Assembly (NCBI GenBank): GCA_017479935.1
Contig: JAFVBO010000020.1
Coordinates: 1-64,000, forward strand
DNA from: Lachnospiraceae bacterium
GTDB lineage: Bacteria > Bacillota > Clostridia > Lachnospirales > Lachnospiraceae
Length of the DNA stretch: 64,000 nt
Direction of reading: 5' to 3'
This document shows positions 13,010 through 59,441 of this stretch, one piece after another. The first letter of the stretch is position 1; every line of letters starts with the position of its first letter. Both the position numbers and the translations under genes were made by a program. The notes below the pieces were generated by a model that made no database searches, had not been told where the DNA came from, and worked only from the letters and a program-made list of their open reading frames with translations.

Positions 13010-13015
13010 TATAGC

Positions 13016-13194
13016 ATTCACGGGTCACCAACCCATCAGGTCCCAGGCCATCCGCCTACGGCGTATGTCGCACCTTCGGTGCTTTTGCCTGGGACTGATG
13101 GGTGGTGACTGCTTTCGCAGTTCACTGGCAATGCAAGCGTGCTTATGCATGCAAGCATGCAAAGCACCTCTTGCATTGCCAGTGCCCCGTGAAT
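13016..13194. repeat. Intergenic cloverleaf element A
   Basis: ATTCACGGG (13016-13024) pairs with CCCGTGAAT (13186-13194). Inside lie three arms. Arm 1 is 13025-13048 with 13087-13108, about 22 pairs with two bulges, ending in GTCCCAGGC/GCCTGGGAC and enclosing two small hairpins (GCC-tac-GGC, GCACC-ttc-GGTGC). Arm 2 is CTGC-tttc-GCAG (13109-13120). Arm 3 is 13123-13137 with 13170-13184, 15 perfect pairs. Only three bases at the junction are unpaired. No reading frame or ribosome site uses the region. It occupies almost all of the 290-base gap 13010-13299. Confidence 0.85.
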
Positions 13195-13299
13195 AGTAAC
13201 CGTGTTTACAAACTTTTTCCATTTGCAGGACGGGAAACAGTTGCCAAAAGCGGGATAAGTGAAGTAGAATATAGAAAAGAAAAAAAGGGGGCGTGGAAG

Positions 13300-43016: not shown

Positions 43017-43448
43017 GTTGCATGGGGAAGAGCGGGATTTGCTTCGAACCCCATGCAAATGCGGGCTTGCGGAGAAACGAAATGCATGGGGTTCAAGCGG
43101 AATTGGCTCAAACCCCATGCAAATGTAGGCTTGCGGAGAAGTGAAATGCATGGGAAAGAGTGGAATATGCCTCAAACCCCATGCAAATGCGGGCTTGCGG
43201 AGAAGTGAAATGCATGGGAAAGAGTGGGATATGCCTCAACCCCCATGCAAATGTAGGCTTGCGGAGAAGTGAAATGCATGGGAAAGAGTGGGATATGCCT
43301 TAAATCCCATGCAAATGTAGGCTTGCGGAGAAGTGAAATGCATGGGGAAAGGGCAGAAACAAGCCAAACCCCATGCAAAAGCAAGATTGAAGAGAAATGA
43401 AATGCATGGGAAAGAGAGGAAACAAGCTCAAACCCCATGCATGAGATC
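43017..43448. repeat. Tandem array of six 64-bp palindromic units
   Basis: The CCCCATGC block recurs at 43049, 43113, 43177, 43241, 43305 (as TCCC), 43369 and 43433: an exact 64-bp period over six units plus partial ends. Each unit carries CCCATGCA near its start and TGCATGGG about 45 bases on, so it can fold on itself, and a more variable 19-20 base link. Open frames across it shift every unit because 64 is not a multiple of three, so it is not coding. It fills the 463-base gap between argS and the flavoprotein gene. Confidence 0.92.
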
Positions 43449-45572: not shown

Positions 45573-45596
45573 ATAAGCTCTGGAGACAAGCTGGCC

Positions 45597-45720
45597 TGGG
45601 AAGCACACACACGCAAAACAACAGGCATGGGAAGCACACATACGCAAAACAACAGGTCTGGGAAGCACACATACGCAAAACAACAGATCTGGGAAGCACA
45701 CATGCGCAGAACAACAGGCC
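45597..45720. repeat. Four 31-bp tandem repeats between cmk and ispH
   Basis: Units start at 45597, 45628, 45659 and 45690 and share TGGGAAGCACACA and CGCAAAACAACAG. The period is not a multiple of three. The unit has little self-complementarity. Confidence 0.92.
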
Positions 45721-45782: not shown

Positions 45783-46631
45783 ATGGAACATCCAGCCAGC
45801 GTAACCGTCGCAAAGACAGCCGGTTTCTGCTTCGGAGTAAAACGGGCAGTGGACCGCGTCTACGAATTGATCGAATCAGAAAAAGGCCCCATCTACACCT
45901 ATGGCCCCATCATCCATAATGAGCAGGTGGTGGAAGACCTGAAAAAGCGCGGCGTGGATATCTATGACCCGGAAACGGCTGCCCCCGGCTCTGTGGTGGT
46001 GCTGCGCTCCCACGGTGTGGGAAAGCAGGTGTACCGGGAACTGGAAGAAAAAGGCCATACCATCGTAGACGCTACCTGTCCGTTTGTGGAGCGCATTCAC
46101 AAGATTGTGGAAGAGGAGTCTGCCGCGGGAAAGAAAATCCTGATTGCGGGCGATGCCACGCACCCGGAAGTGGAAGGCATTATGGCTTTCGCCTCGGGCG
46201 AGGTTCGCTGCATAACAAAATTGGATGAAATAGACGAATTGCCCTGGGAGAAGGGCACCCCTGTCTGTTTCGTGGCGCAGACCACATTTAATCACCAAAA
46301 TTTTCAGAATATGGTTGAAAAAATATTCGAAAAGGGGTATGATACTCGTATTGTAAATACTATCTGTAATGCTACTCAGGAGCGGCAGGAAGAAGCAGGC
46401 CGGCTCGCCGAAGCTTCAGACGTCATGATCGTCGTCGGAGGCAGAAGCAGCTCTAACACGCAGAAGCTGTATGAGATTTGTAAAGGCAAATGCGCACGTA
46501 CCTATTTTATCCAAACGGCTGAGGATTTTCATTCAGAAGTGTTACACGGAGGGGATAACGTAGGCATAACTGCTGGTGCATCGACCCCGAGCAATATCAT
46601 ACAGGAGGTCAAAACGAAATGTCAGAATTAA
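45783..46631 (+). CDS. ispH: 4-hydroxy-3-methylbut-2-enyl diphosphate reductase
   Basis: This 282-residue Fe-S enzyme makes IPP and DMAPP in the last step of the MEP pathway. The three cluster cysteines are in AGFCFGVKRAV (C16), DATCPFV and TICNATQERQ; HPEVEG holds the catalytic Glu. ATG 45783 follows GGGAGG. In many clostridia IspH is fused to ribosomal protein S1; here the two are separate genes overlapping by 13 bases, an arrangement close to a fusion. The cluster ties it to the Suf system. Confidence 0.95.
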   Translation: MEHPASVTVAKTAGFCFGVKRAVDRVYELIESEKGPIYTYGPIIHNEQVVEDLKKRGVDIYDPETAAPGSVVVLRSHGVGKQVYRELEEKGHTIVDATCPFVERIHKIVEEESAAGKKILIAGDATHPEVEGIMAFASGEVRCITKLDEIDELPWEKGTPVCFVAQTTFNHQNFQNMVEKIFEKGYDTRIVNTICNATQERQEEAGRLAEASDVMIVVGGRSSSNTQKLYEICKGKCARTYFIQTAEDFHSEVLHGGDNVGITAGASTPSNIIQEVKTKCQN

Positions 46632-47806
46632 GTTTTGAACAGTTATTGGAAGAATCTTTAAAAACAATCCATACGGGGGAGGTCGTTACCGGTAAGGTTA
46701 TCGATGTCAAAGATGATGAAATCATCCTGAACATCGGCTGCAAATCTGACGGTATCATCAGCAAGAGCGAGTATTCCAATGATAACAGCATCAACCTGAA
46801 GGAAGCAGTCAAGGTTGGTGACGAACTGGAAGCCAAGGTGCTGAAGGTGAACGATGGCGAAGGTCAGGTAGCTCTTTCTTACAAGAGACTGGCTGCAGAC
46901 CGCGGAAACAAGAGACTCGAAGAGGCTTATGAGAACGCGGAAGTCTTAAAGTCCACGGTTAAGCAGGTTGTGGACGGCGGACTGATTGTTGAGGTAGAGG
47001 GAAGCCGCGTGTTTATCCCCGCCAGCCTGGTTTCCGATTCTTACGAGAGAAATCTTGAGAAGTACAACGGCCAGGAAATCGAATTCGTTATCACCGAGTT
47101 CAATCCGAAGAAGAGAAGAATCATCGGCAACCGTCGTCAGCTGGTTTCCGCTCAGAGAGCCGCTGCGAAGGAAGCTCTGTTCTCCCGCATCGAAGAAGGC
47201 ATGACCGTTACCGGTACTGTGAAGAACATCACCGAGTTCGGCGCGTTCATCGATCTTGGCGGAGCGGATGGCCTGCTTCATGTTTCCGAGATGAGCTGGG
47301 GCCGCATCGAGCGCCCGAAGAACCTGTTCACTGTTGGACAGGAAGTCAAGTGCTTCATCAAGAACATCACCGGCGAGAAGATCGCCCTCAGCATGAAGTT
47401 CCCGGGCGAGAACCCTTGGGAGAAGGCCGTTACCAAGTATGCCGTTGGCAACGTGGTTACCGGTAAGGTTGCCAGAATGACTGATTTCGGCGCTTTCGTA
47501 GAGCTGGAAGATGGCATCGACGCCCTGCTGCATGTTTCTCAGATCTCCCGCAACCGCGTGGAGAAGCCTTCGGATGTTCTGAAGGTTGGCCAGGAAGTTA
47601 CCGCTCAGGTAGTGGACTTCAACGGCGAGAACAAGAGAATCAGCCTGAGCATGAAGGCCCTTGAGCCCGCTCCGGAGAAGCCCGAAAGAGAGCCTCGTCC
47701 GAAGAAAGAGCGCGAGCCCGAACCGATCGTTCCGGGTCTGGAGCAGCCCGAAGCCATGACCATGGCAGACGCGCTGAAGGCCGCTGTTCAGTCTGTGGAG
47801 CAGTAA
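46619..47806 (+). CDS. rpsA: Ribosomal protein S1 homologue
   Basis: The 395-residue protein has four S1 RNA-binding repeats (about 18-90, 105-170, 190-258, 275-345), shown by GKVIDVKDDEIILNIG, GTVKNITEFGAFIDLG and GKVARMTDFGAFVELE. A charged Pro/Glu tail follows. It is shorter than the six-repeat enterobacterial S1, as is normal in Firmicutes. ATG 46619 lies inside ispH behind GGAGG, so translation is probably coupled. Confidence 0.93.
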   Translation: MSELSFEQLLEESLKTIHTGEVVTGKVIDVKDDEIILNIGCKSDGIISKSEYSNDNSINLKEAVKVGDELEAKVLKVNDGEGQVALSYKRLAADRGNKRLEEAYENAEVLKSTVKQVVDGGLIVEVEGSRVFIPASLVSDSYERNLEKYNGQEIEFVITEFNPKKRRIIGNRRQLVSAQRAAAKEALFSRIEEGMTVTGTVKNITEFGAFIDLGGADGLLHVSEMSWGRIERPKNLFTVGQEVKCFIKNITGEKIALSMKFPGENPWEKAVTKYAVGNVVTGKVARMTDFGAFVELEDGIDALLHVSQISRNRVEKPSDVLKVGQEVTAQVVDFNGENKRISLSMKALEPAPEKPEREPRPKKEREPEPIVPGLEQPEAMTMADALKAAVQSVEQ

Positions 47807-47855: not shown

Positions 47856-47891
47856 ATAGCCCTGTGGATGTCATATCCGCAGGGCTATTTG
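47856..47891 (+). terminator. Terminator after rpsA
   Basis: ATAGCCCTGTGGA (47856-47868) pairs with TCCGCAGGGCTAT (47876-47888), one G-U pair, short T tract. Confidence 0.75.
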
Positions 47892-47907
47892 AACGTAAAA
47901 TATATTT

Positions 47908-48071
47908 ACAGCACAGCTATGCAGAAAAGAAAGGAAAATAGCTGCTTGCAGCTACTTTTCCATTCTTTTCTGCATAGGTCGTGGTGGGCCCCCCACCACG
48001 ACAGTCCCAGGCAAAAGCCGCGAAAGCGGCGAGCGTCGTGCGAAGCAGGACGCGCCTGGGACCTGTGCTGT
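47908..48071. repeat. Intergenic cloverleaf element B
   Basis: ACAGCACAG (47908-47916) pairs with CTGTGCTGT (48063-48071). Arm 1, 47917-47945 with 47948-47977, has about 28 pairs with one mismatch and one bulge. Arm 2 is GTCGTGGTGGG (47978-47988) with CCCACCACGAC (47992-48002). Arm 3 is GTCCCAGGC (48004-48012) with GCCTGGGAC (48054-48062), enclosing GCCGC-gaaa-GCGGC and GCGTC/GACGC. Only base 48003 is unpaired at the junction. The layout is the same as element A at 13016. No credible gene overlaps it. Confidence 0.88.
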
Positions 48072-48093
48072 AAGCATCACGAAACAAAAAATC

Positions 48094-48141
48094 AGTCCCA
48101 GGCTTTTAGCCGCGTACGCGACGTGCCTGTGACCTGTGCTG
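48094..48141. repeat. Partial second copy of cloverleaf arm 3 and closing stem
   Basis: GTCCCAGGC (48095-48103), a GCCGCGTACGCG core and a GTGCCTGTGACCTGTGCTG end repeat the right half of element B in decayed form. It ends about 17 bases before the next gene and its partner strand is missing. Confidence 0.65.
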
Positions 48142-48157
48142 CACACTCAGGTGAACT

Positions 48158-49252
48158 ATGAAAGTAAGCGAATGCGTATATACCCCAGTCCGAACATCCA
48201 CAGCGGTCCTACATACTCTGCCCGGCCGGTACGTGTTCTTTGACATCGAGACCACCGGTCTGTCCTCCAAAAACAGCACGGTTTACCTGATTGGCGTCAC
48301 CTGGCCCGTGTCCTACGAAAATCCGGACAGGGAATGGAACTTTTGCCAATGGTTTGCCGACACGCGGGAGAGTGAACGCGAGGTTTTGCGGGAATTCACC
48401 CTGTGCCTTGCCGGGTTCGACACCCTGGTGCACTTTAACGGCGATACCTTCGACATCCCCTTTGTGCGTGGACGCCTCTTTTATCACCGCATGTCCGATC
48501 CGTTTTCGCTGATCACCAGCGTGGATCTGTATCGAATGGCCAGGCCGTTAAAGAAAATGCTTCCGATCGGAAGTCTGAAATTAAAAAGCCTGGAAAGTTT
48601 CCTGGGGATCCACAGGGACGATCCGTATACGGGCGGGGAGCTGATCGATGTCTACAATCAGTACCTGAAGTGCCCTACCCGGGAAGCGGAAAAAGACCTG
48701 ATGCTTCACAATGAGGAAGACATCAAAGGCATGCCGGAGCTTCTTCCCATCTTCGCGTATCTGGATATGAAAAAGGCGTCGTATCGCCTGGTCGGTCAGA
48801 AAAGGGAGCGCTACAGCGGGTTTGACGGGACGGAAAAGACCGAGGTCTGTCTGACTTTCGAGAGCAGCCTCGCCCTCCCGGCCGCGTATACACAGCGAGG
48901 AGAGGACGTAACACTGCATGTGGATGGCAACATCTTCACCTTCTTTTTCACGCCCTATGTCGGGGCGCTGCGCCACTTTTTTCCCAATTATCGGGACTAT
49001 TTTTATCTGACGATGGAAGACAAGATTGTCCATAAGAGCATCGGACAGTTCGTGGATAAAGCTGTTCGCCGCAAGGCCCGCCCGGAAGAGTGCTACGTGG
49101 AAAAAGAGGGCCTGTTCCTGCCGCAGAAAGAACCGCTCATCACGCCGGTGTTTCAGAAAGAAGGAAAAGGAAGGGAATGGTTCTTCCTTTTGGAAGAGGA
49201 ACTGAAGTGGGATGAGGAAACGGCCACCCGCTTTGTGCAGGGTTGGCTGTAA
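48158..49252 (+). CDS. YprB-like ribonuclease H-fold 3'-5' exonuclease
   Basis: The 364-residue protein has an RNase H-like DEDD exonuclease core: FFDIETTGLSS (D29, E31), HFNGDTFDIPFV and HNEEDIKGM. This is the YprB pattern; the natural substrate is not known. The C-terminal 160 residues are of unknown role, and TPR repeats seen in some YprB proteins are absent. ATG 48158 has a modest site AGGTGA and begins soon after the partial cloverleaf copy. Confidence 0.83.
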   Translation: MKVSECVYTPVRTSTAVLHTLPGRYVFFDIETTGLSSKNSTVYLIGVTWPVSYENPDREWNFCQWFADTRESEREVLREFTLCLAGFDTLVHFNGDTFDIPFVRGRLFYHRMSDPFSLITSVDLYRMARPLKKMLPIGSLKLKSLESFLGIHRDDPYTGGELIDVYNQYLKCPTREAEKDLMLHNEEDIKGMPELLPIFAYLDMKKASYRLVGQKRERYSGFDGTEKTEVCLTFESSLALPAAYTQRGEDVTLHVDGNIFTFFFTPYVGALRHFFPNYRDYFYLTMEDKIVHKSIGQFVDKAVRRKARPEECYVEKEGLFLPQKEPLITPVFQKEGKGREWFFLLEEELKWDEETATRFVQGWL

Positions 49253-57500: not shown

Positions 57501-59441
57501 ATGAACCAAGGTAGCAAAAAGAAAAAAAATCTGCTCGGCGCGTTGTTCATCACGTTGCTGTTATATTTCATCTTCTCTATCTCTGGCAGGATATATACCT
57601 TTACAGACAATATTACAGTAGCGGTGGTGACCGGCGGGATGTATGGCGACAACAACATGTGCCAGTACCTGCATCCGTTATTCTGCCTGATCATCAAAGT
57701 CCTGAACCCGATCCTGCCCACAGCGGATGTGTTTGCCGTTCTTATGCATGCGGCGCTGCTCTTGGGCATCTTTGTCATGTCTTATATGACGATAGAGAAT
57801 TCGTTCCGGAAACCGATAAAGAAATGGGATATTGAGGACTATATCTTTTTCGCCGTGTTGCTCTGCGCCATCACATACTTTGTCCTTGGATTCAAACTCT
57901 TTGGTGTGAATTATACGGTGCAGTCTGCCGGGATCCTCGCGATGGGGCTGATCACCCTTTTCTACGCAAGATACCGTGGTAAGGGCCGGCGGTGGATCAT
58001 CGCAGGAACGCTCCTGGTATTTGCCGGATTCCTTGGGCGGATGGAAGCCTGCCTGCTGTTCCTGCCGTTTATTGCGCTGGAGCTTTTTATCGAGTTTGTC
58101 CGCCACAGGGGACGGATAAAAAGGGCAAAGGAAGGGCTGAGATACTTCCTTCCGATGTTTGTGGTCATCATCGGACTGCTCGGTTCTAAGGCGTTGTTCT
58201 TACAATTTGAGCCATACAAATCCGATGCCGCTTATAATGAGTACCGTACCGTCGCGGAAGATTATCCGATGGAAACCTACGGGGTTTCGTATAAGGATTT
58301 CAGCGAGATCGACCACAGTACCTATACCATGGTTCTTCACTGGATGCTGGCGGATACGGATCTGATCAATGAGGAATCCCTGAGGAAGATCGCGGAGGTT
58401 GGCAGCCGGAACGAGTTTCAGGCTACCGAACAGGGGATCAAAGGAACCTTCCGGGACATGAAATGGATGGCGACCACGCAGGATATCCATATTATGGTAC
58501 TGATTTTCCTGGCCGTAGTGCTGACCCTCTGGAGCCTGATCGCAGTCAGGAGCATATGGCTGAAGCTGGAAGCCCTTTTCAGCTTTGGCGGCGGTTTTAT
58601 CATACTGTTCTATTTCGCCTTCCGTGGCCGGGCACCTATCCGTGTGTGGCAGTGTACCCTGATTGCATGTCTTACGAACCTGGCTTTGATTATGATTAAA
58701 AACCGGATGGACAGGCGGGAGAGGGCAGCCCACAAAACCACTGTTGACCAGGGGAATGCGTGTGGCCAGGGGAATGCGTGTGAACAGGGGAATGCGTGTG
58801 AACAGGGGAATGCGTGTGAACAGGGGAGTGTGTGTGAACAGGGGGGTGTGGGTGACCAAGGGAGTGTGGGTAATCAGCGGGATGCGGGTGACGCGCAGGA
58901 GACGGTCTTACAGCAGAACGGTGAACAGAGAAAGGTTAGCACGCGCCCTGTCCCCATCTTCACGGTTGTATTCCAGCTCTTCTTATGTATCGTCTTGTAT
59001 TTCGGAGTAGGGCAGGTGCTTGCGCATTCAAGTATCCACGCGCCAACATCGCCTTTAACAGCCCGAATCGGCCAGGACGACAGTGGGTATGAGATGACGT
59101 TCGAAGATAATGCCCTTTACATCTGGCCGGGATGGTATTCCGCGATTCCGGACTATTTCTCTAAACAGGACAAGCTACCGACACAGCGGGTAATTGAGCA
59201 TAACATTGCTATAGGGGACTGGGTGTATGATCAGGTATATTTCAGGGAGTTTTTGAGTCGGATCGATGCGGAAAATCCGGCGCTGGCGCTTCTTGACAGG
59301 CCGAACACATACCTGGTAGAAGGTCAGGAGAAGATTTTCCTTGAATACATGCAGGAACACTACGGGAACGACATACAGCTTGAGTACTCCCATGAGATAC
59401 TTAACCGGAAGGTGTATAAGCTTGTAAGGGGTGAGAAATAA
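57501..59441 (+). CDS. Polytopic membrane protein (GT-C-like) with repeat insert
   Basis: The 646-residue protein has about nine hydrophobic segments in residues 10-410, one more near 490, and an extracellular-looking C-terminal tail of about 140 residues. The layout resembles membrane glycosyltransferases or polymerases, but I see no decisive motif. Residues 417-464 are eight six-residue repeats (QGNACE type) between two membrane regions. It starts 1 base after the previous stop, with AAAGGTGA upstream, and is followed directly by a GT2 gene. Confidence 0.65.
   Translation: MNQGSKKKKNLLGALFITLLLYFIFSISGRIYTFTDNITVAVVTGGMYGDNNMCQYLHPLFCLIIKVLNPILPTADVFAVLMHAALLLGIFVMSYMTIENSFRKPIKKWDIEDYIFFAVLLCAITYFVLGFKLFGVNYTVQSAGILAMGLITLFYARYRGKGRRWIIAGTLLVFAGFLGRMEACLLFLPFIALELFIEFVRHRGRIKRAKEGLRYFLPMFVVIIGLLGSKALFLQFEPYKSDAAYNEYRTVAEDYPMETYGVSYKDFSEIDHSTYTMVLHWMLADTDLINEESLRKIAEVGSRNEFQATEQGIKGTFRDMKWMATTQDIHIMVLIFLAVVLTLWSLIAVRSIWLKLEALFSFGGGFIILFYFAFRGRAPIRVWQCTLIACLTNLALIMIKNRMDRRERAAHKTTVDQGNACGQGNACEQGNACEQGNACEQGSVCEQGGVGDQGSVGNQRDAGDAQETVLQQNGEQRKVSTRPVPIFTVVFQLFLCIVLYFGVGQVLAHSSIHAPTSPLTARIGQDDSGYEMTFEDNALYIWPGWYSAIPDYFSKQDKLPTQRVIEHNIAIGDWVYDQVYFREFLSRIDAENPALALLDRPNTYLVEGQEKIFLEYMQEHYGNDIQLEYSHEILNRKVYKLVRGEK
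58749..58892 (+). repeat. Eight 18-bp in-frame tandem repeats
   Basis: Units start every 18 bases from 58749 with CAGGGG and continue AATGCGTGTGAA or a variant; the last three are degenerate. The period preserves the frame of the membrane protein. Confidence 0.93.

Follow-up and report, generated by a model that had tools for sequence, protein, structure and literature searches.

An intergenic cloverleaf of a Lachnospiraceae genome is probably an old copy of a modular MITE family with IS66/ISBst12-type ends

The cloverleaf and its locus

The window, by which we mean the whole 64,000-nt stretch of Lachnospiraceae DNA analysed here (contig JAFVBO010000020.1), carries a 164-bp cloverleaf between two co-directional genes, about 101 nt past a gene for an S1-domain protein and 87 nt ahead of one for an RNase H-superfamily protein. 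Read on the forward strand, positions 47908–48071 run from arm 1 through arm 2 to arm 3, with a single unpaired A at 48003 between the last two arms. The parts of the cloverleaf, its neighbours and a related element elsewhere in the window (element A) are listed below.

46619–47806, + strand: co-directional gene upstream, coding for a protein that has several S1 RNA-binding domains (PF00575, E = 3e-64)
47908–48071, − strand: whole B-family cloverleaf core, 164 bp (match to covariance model R1 and fold z-score)
47908–47916, + strand: left half of the closing stem, ACAGCACAG, with no GTAACTA tip of the kind seen in intact copies beyond it
47917–47977, + strand: arm 1, a long hairpin; changes on both sides across copies in 13 of 23 pairs (helices 6 and 7)
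47978–48002, + strand: arm 2, GTCGTGGTGGG/CCCACCACGAC hairpin; both partners vary in three pairs, and 100% of cells are paired
48004–48062, + strand: arm 3, GTCCCAGGC/GCCTGGGAC stem, a module common to family A
48017–48030 and 48033–48053, + strand: the two sub-hairpins of arm 3
48063–48071, + strand: closing stem, right half CTGTGCTGT; 9 bp with the left half
48095–48141, + strand: damaged second copy, with a diverged arm 3 and the right closing stem
48158–49252, + strand: downstream co-directional gene, RNase H-superfamily protein (PF13482, E = 3e-31)
13010–13200, + strand: element A, a family A MITE; right IS66-type end intact, ending at 13200 (C48:13186–13199), left tip degraded

As DNA, the region 47880–48100 folds at −75.6 kcal/mol, compared with −29.0 ± 3.1 kcal/mol for its dinucleotide shuffles (z = −14.8), and the fold confirms the architecture that an earlier note had read from the letters: a 9-bp closing stem, three arms, a split GTCCCAGGC/GCCTGGGAC arm and one unpaired base. 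Three-arm folds also arise in 19–41% of cores that were shuffled between the same closing ends, so the number of arms is unremarkable, and it is the stability and the covariation that are unusual. We therefore rejected three arms as a conserved signature; related MITEs have none, two or three.

The core matches R1, a covariance model that we built from 14 B copies, on the − strand over its full length (158 bits, model positions 1–160), and the copy is of type B2. On both sides, its outer sequence has 4/8 mismatches to a GTAACTA-type tip. For the window copy alone, we looked for terminal repeats of its own and for a recognisable target duplication and found neither, and its putative membership of the MITEs described below is by homology of the core only. 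The damaged second copy downstream, which the earlier note had not described, retains stem matches at 48095–48103 and 48125–48133. Comparable damaged tandem copies occur at L207, L215, L216 and L217, all of them tip-less loci, and because they share the private variants of their neighbours, they are local duplications.

Searches for a known identity were negative. No Rfam family reached its gathering score anywhere in the window, and a permissive scan returned generic long-hairpin miRNA models only, far below the cut-off, so that a known RNA family was rejected. A phage or plasmid origin was also rejected, as phage and plasmid records held no match; the arm-1 apex was absent from viral contigs, and R1 matched none of the 18 viral contigs in which the arm-3 stem pattern occurs.

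Intact relatives and their IS66/ISBst12-type ends

Copies were counted by model and pattern searches of the host genome, a 3.7-Mb draft in 139 contigs. The covariance-model scan, set as a test beforehand, found further members, with 15 full-length B copies in all (E = 9e-37 to 3e-19, window copy included), and also picks up family A and many fragments. Because most of the B copies were in the R1 alignment, their scores do not count as independent evidence; C71:53857, a copy outside that alignment, scores 141 bits. The arm-3 pattern GTCCCAGGC-N(20–50)-GCCTGGGAC occurs at 31 sites of the host genome, copies that the earlier note had not seen, and at none when reversed as a control. None of 144 other genomes from the same family and order contains the exact arm 3; the genus was represented by this one genome.

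Full-length intact copies are 176–192 bp long and contain only hairpins, without a transposase gene. Both ends bear terminal inverted repeats, GTAACTAYTCAGCA in family B or GTTACTATTCACGGGTC, and the closing stem sits immediately inside them; family A copies begin GTTACTATTCACGGGTCA, with the inverted repeat at the opposite end. Perfect 8-bp target duplications are present at L002, L004, L014, L015, L038, L041, L042 and L046; the duplicated sequence is gatcaaat at L002, for instance, and gtgttgcg at L042. Families A and B are thus MITEs, being shorter than about 600 bp and gene-free, with terminal repeats, a duplication of fixed length and dispersed copies. Element A, which has the same general plan as the window cloverleaf, belongs to the first of these families. 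The earlier note knew of no described family with this plan; that statement has to be corrected, since the intact members are MITEs with IS66/ISBst12-type ends and 8-bp duplications.

The same ends recur outside the host genome. In other gut Lachnospiraceae, the family-A end bounds a different multi-hairpin MITE of about 145 bp, and perfect 8-bp duplications are found in about 28 of 46 pairs of family-A ends from such genomes. In one relative, G053, the B-type end is matched, within one mismatch, 86 times on one strand and 95 times on the other; one G053 element with this end is 165 bp long and folds into three unrelated arms. On an Atopobiaceae contig (JAFWLX010000238.1, 3046–3267; L135), a 222-bp element with the family-A end folds as one near-continuous hairpin of about 80 pairs and is flanked by inverted sequences (tagctgct / agcagcta), without a duplication.

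ISDge4, a member of the ISBst12 group caught transposing in Deinococcus, bears GTGACTACTCAGCA at one end and GTAACTGCTCAGCA at the other, with an 8-bp repeat (PMC12898284), and IS66 elements of Paracoccus are likewise listed with 8-bp repeats (PMC3281130). The family B end, GTAACTAYTCAGCA, is one base off each ISDge4 end. The MITEs share near-identical ends and the length of the direct repeat with ISBst12-group IS such as ISDge4, whereas the latter are autonomous, with a transposase gene, and the elements here are gene-free and made of hairpin arms. One IS66-family gene was found in the host genome (L109, PF03050), bounded by GTTACTGTTCAGGGGGCGGGG. The end of this copy (GTTACTGTTCAGGGGG) differs from the MITE ends, and no clear target duplication was seen at it, the only IS66 copy of the genome. 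In relatives, as in genomes carrying the family-A end, IS66 genes have GTTACTTTTCACGGGG, GTTACTGTTCACAC or GTAACTGTTCAGAACC at their boundaries. The MITE ends thus resemble closely those of IS66 elements both in the host genome and in relatives. No autonomous IS with exactly the MITE ends was found, the 139-contig host draft included. From the matching ends and the length of the duplication, we infer mobilisation by an IS66/ISBst12 transposase that would have acted in trans, binding the terminal repeats and moving the intervening DNA, with the hairpin arms probably carried as passenger modules.

A further family, C (L100, L101, L103, L104 and L260), has the ends GTATCTACTCAGCA and GTAACTGCTCAGCA, the second identical to the second ISDge4 end. 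One of its ends is a 27-bp palindrome, and its 8-bp target duplications include aatactat at L100 and aagcaaaa at L101. Lone IS66-type ends, with no partner within about 400 bp, occur at L049, L052, L063, L068, L072, L079, L080 and L095, often just upstream of a gene, as if left behind by deletions.

Exchanged arms and covarying pairs

Between family A and type B1, the interior of arm 3 is 89% identical, whereas the rest is 55% identical, which is at chance level (shuffles: mean 50, maximum 58). Types B1 and B2 show the opposite pattern, with 82–85% identity outside arm 3 and 62–67% inside it (chance maximum 67). The interior of arm 3 has a history different from that of the rest of the element. 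As A and B have arm 3 alone in common and are otherwise unrelated, the arms are modules, common to several families and exchanged or dropped as units. A family of modular elements, one of the possibilities raised in the earlier note, is borne out by the many genomic copies, by the sharing of arm 3 among families with unrelated other arms, and by compensatory changes that lie far above the controls. Two 95-bp B copies at different sites consist of arm 3 alone, each with its own 8-bp duplication, and the other arms thus look dispensable for movement. Other reduced copies hold a single arm of A or the ends alone.

The arms themselves host a second structured module of 112–119 nt (GGAGCGGAGCACTTAGCG...GTGCAATGG), with 14 long copies in the host genome (L255–L268; for example, C29:1468–1586, C117:27–145, C10:1388–1505 and C98:76710–76816). 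It lies in arm 3 of three B copies, in a family C hairpin and in other palindromic repeats, usually directly after GCT and with no visible target duplication, and may be mobile in its own right, with hairpins as its landing sites. We rejected a Y1 (IS200/IS605-type) transposase as the origin of the module, which flanks none of the eight such host-genome genes examined.

Chunjie of Geobacter and QMITE2 of Coxiella are bacterial MITEs (reviewed in PMC10969869) that resemble the present families in their size of about 180–235 bp, terminal repeats, stable folds, size variants and end-less copies. QMITE2 has direct repeats of 7–9 bp and has been hit by another element in a hairpin, and Chunjie has inserted into an operon, both comparable to copies here (PMC10969869). 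Unlike Chunjie and QMITE2, the present elements have IS66/ISBst12-type ends, end-less copies with an orientation bias, and arms that serve as modules in families whose ends and remaining arms are unrelated. REPs are palindromes of 20–40 bp with a GTAG or CGTC tag, and G-U pairs are often seen in the GTAG repeats (PMC3733652). Like these tagged palindromes, the elements here are dispersed and intergenic, with alternative complementary residues in their stems (PMC3733652); unlike them, they measure about 160–190 bp, have terminal repeats and 8-bp duplications, and rarely contain G-U pairs. With its 164-bp three-arm core and no GTAG or CGTC tag at its ends, the window element was rejected as a REP.

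In the open-access literature, we found no description of Lachnospiraceae MITEs that combine a link to IS66 with exchangeable cloverleaf arms, which is no proof of novelty. We regard the family as a modular form of the MITE, a kind of element already known. The elements link structured intergenic repeats of gut Lachnospiraceae to IS66/ISBst12-type ends, and show clearly that mobile elements can have hairpin arms in common as modules and that such arms can harbour a second structured element.

Of the 57 consensus pairs, 19 have changed on both sides, a number reached by 0 of 500 shuffles, and slid pairings give 2–6. The pairs are nearly all Watson–Crick, with G-U making up about 1–3%. Counted by strand, family A has 7 G-U pairs on each, and family B has 23 on one and 16 on the other; among tip-less copies, 4 fall on the sense strand and 11 on the antisense. 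If selection acted on RNA, such pairs should be tolerated on the transcribed strand, and as few are seen, the pairing looks kept as DNA. RNA-level selection as the cause of the covariation was rejected, being unsupported by the G-U counts, which have no consistent strand bias. The data favour upkeep at the DNA level and fit both selection on DNA hairpins and the correction of palindromes during replication. Selection for structure, as proposed in the earlier note, is therefore no more than possible, as DNA-level palindrome correction explains the covariation equally well. The scarcity of G-U pairs offers a handle on whether selection or a DNA repair process lies behind covariation in palindromic repeats, which matters wherever covariation serves as proof of RNA structure.

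Tip-less copies and the explanations weighed

Tip-less copies, the window copy among them, lie for the most part in gaps that separate co-directional genes. They are more diverged than tipped ones, with nearly all pairs kept. On the B tree, the window copy groups with the divergent copies that lack tips, and a single change of the tip label is needed (0 of 500 shuffles are that low), although the split is weakly supported (35/72). With forward defined as arm 1 to arm 3, a post hoc test on the same data, with few copies, hand-classified tips and a simple codon-usage gene caller, places tip-less copies between co-directional genes 16 times in sense and 3 times in antisense (p = 0.004), and 12 times in sense and never in antisense where neither gap exceeds about 110 nt; only 1 of 9 tipped copies between co-directional genes is in sense (Fisher p = 0.0009). 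Given how it was obtained, the orientation bias is a lead and not proof. Tipped copies occur in all contexts and are paired equally well. Many tip-less copies begin 1–20 nt past a stop codon, with A/T-rich DNA before them and no visible target duplication. Terminator-like sites inside the element number two on the antisense strand and one, weaker, on the sense strand. Antisense copies may terminate transcription and get purged, or sense copies may be useful, and both fit the bias, which suggests tolerance or exaptation in mRNA. A promoter-like TATACTGT motif precedes three tip-less B copies (left flanks of L207 and L210; L294), and the element may there start the 5′ leader of the next gene.

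We consider the window cloverleaf to be probably an old copy of a family of non-autonomous mobile elements (MITEs), a reading that is well supported for the family and less directly for this copy. Its outer GTAACTA tips would have been lost, or were perhaps never present, and a copy without them should no longer move. It now sits between co-directional genes, in the orientation favoured by tip-less copies, and any present effect would be cis-acting, as a hairpin-rich spacer between genes that may be tolerated or exapted in this orientation, since stronger termination of transcription would be expected from the opposite one. Counting against decay from a MITE is the different genomic distribution of tip-less and tipped copies, a difference not expected from simple decay. 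An unlikely alternative reverses the order of events: the tip-less core (TCAGCACAG-arm 1-arm 2-arm 3-CTGTGCTGA) would be the original, a functional, orientation-fixed paired-DNA element that trades arms and acts in cis between co-transcribed genes (as an attenuator, processing site or mRNA stabiliser), and one capture by IS66-type ends would have produced mobile B. The sense bias of tip-less copies, which tipped copies do not share, their greater divergence with nearly all pairs intact and the single change of the tip label on the tree all agree with such an origin. However, the orientation test is post hoc and draws on few copies, the sense strand shows no tolerance of G-U pairs, purging of antisense insertions yields the bias without function, and the tree split is weakly supported. 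If the biased copies are functional, the cargo of a mini-transposon would have become a cis-acting element between co-directional genes.

The position of many tip-less copies just past stop codons, after A/T-rich DNA and with no visible duplication, could also reflect a core that is itself mobile through a non-IS66 enzyme favouring such gaps, but we regard this as distinctly improbable: insertions into the short gaps of operons are bound to lie near a stop codon, a candidate enzyme was not found, the two ends form a plain palindrome, and the tandem copies are local duplications with common private variants. Strong covariation and the constant sense orientation in tight gaps are likewise what a structured RNA selected as RNA (a leader, riboswitch or sRNA), with incidental mobility, might show. 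G-U pairs are very few, with no excess on the transcribed strand, no Rfam model matches at its gathering score, and tipped copies are equally paired in all contexts, all of which make an RNA of this kind very improbable. Some arms are terminator-like by score, but a chance likeness of elements A and B as unrelated terminators, named in the earlier note as what would overturn its proposal, has practically no probability left and is already refuted by homology of sequence and structure at about 15 sites across the genome (E down to 9e-37), by common ends and target duplications, and by the identity of arm 3 between A and B1.

The window holds other repeats of a simpler kind. A 64-bp unit is repeated five times head-to-tail at 43019–43413, between open reading frames, its copies 78–86% alike, and a 31-bp unit (GGCATGGGAAGCACACATACGCAAAACAACA) about four times head-to-tail at 45593–45716, directly before the LytB gene (PF02401) at 45783. 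At 58727–58906, an 18-bp tandem repeat (TGAACAGGGGAATGCGTG) lies within a long open reading frame.
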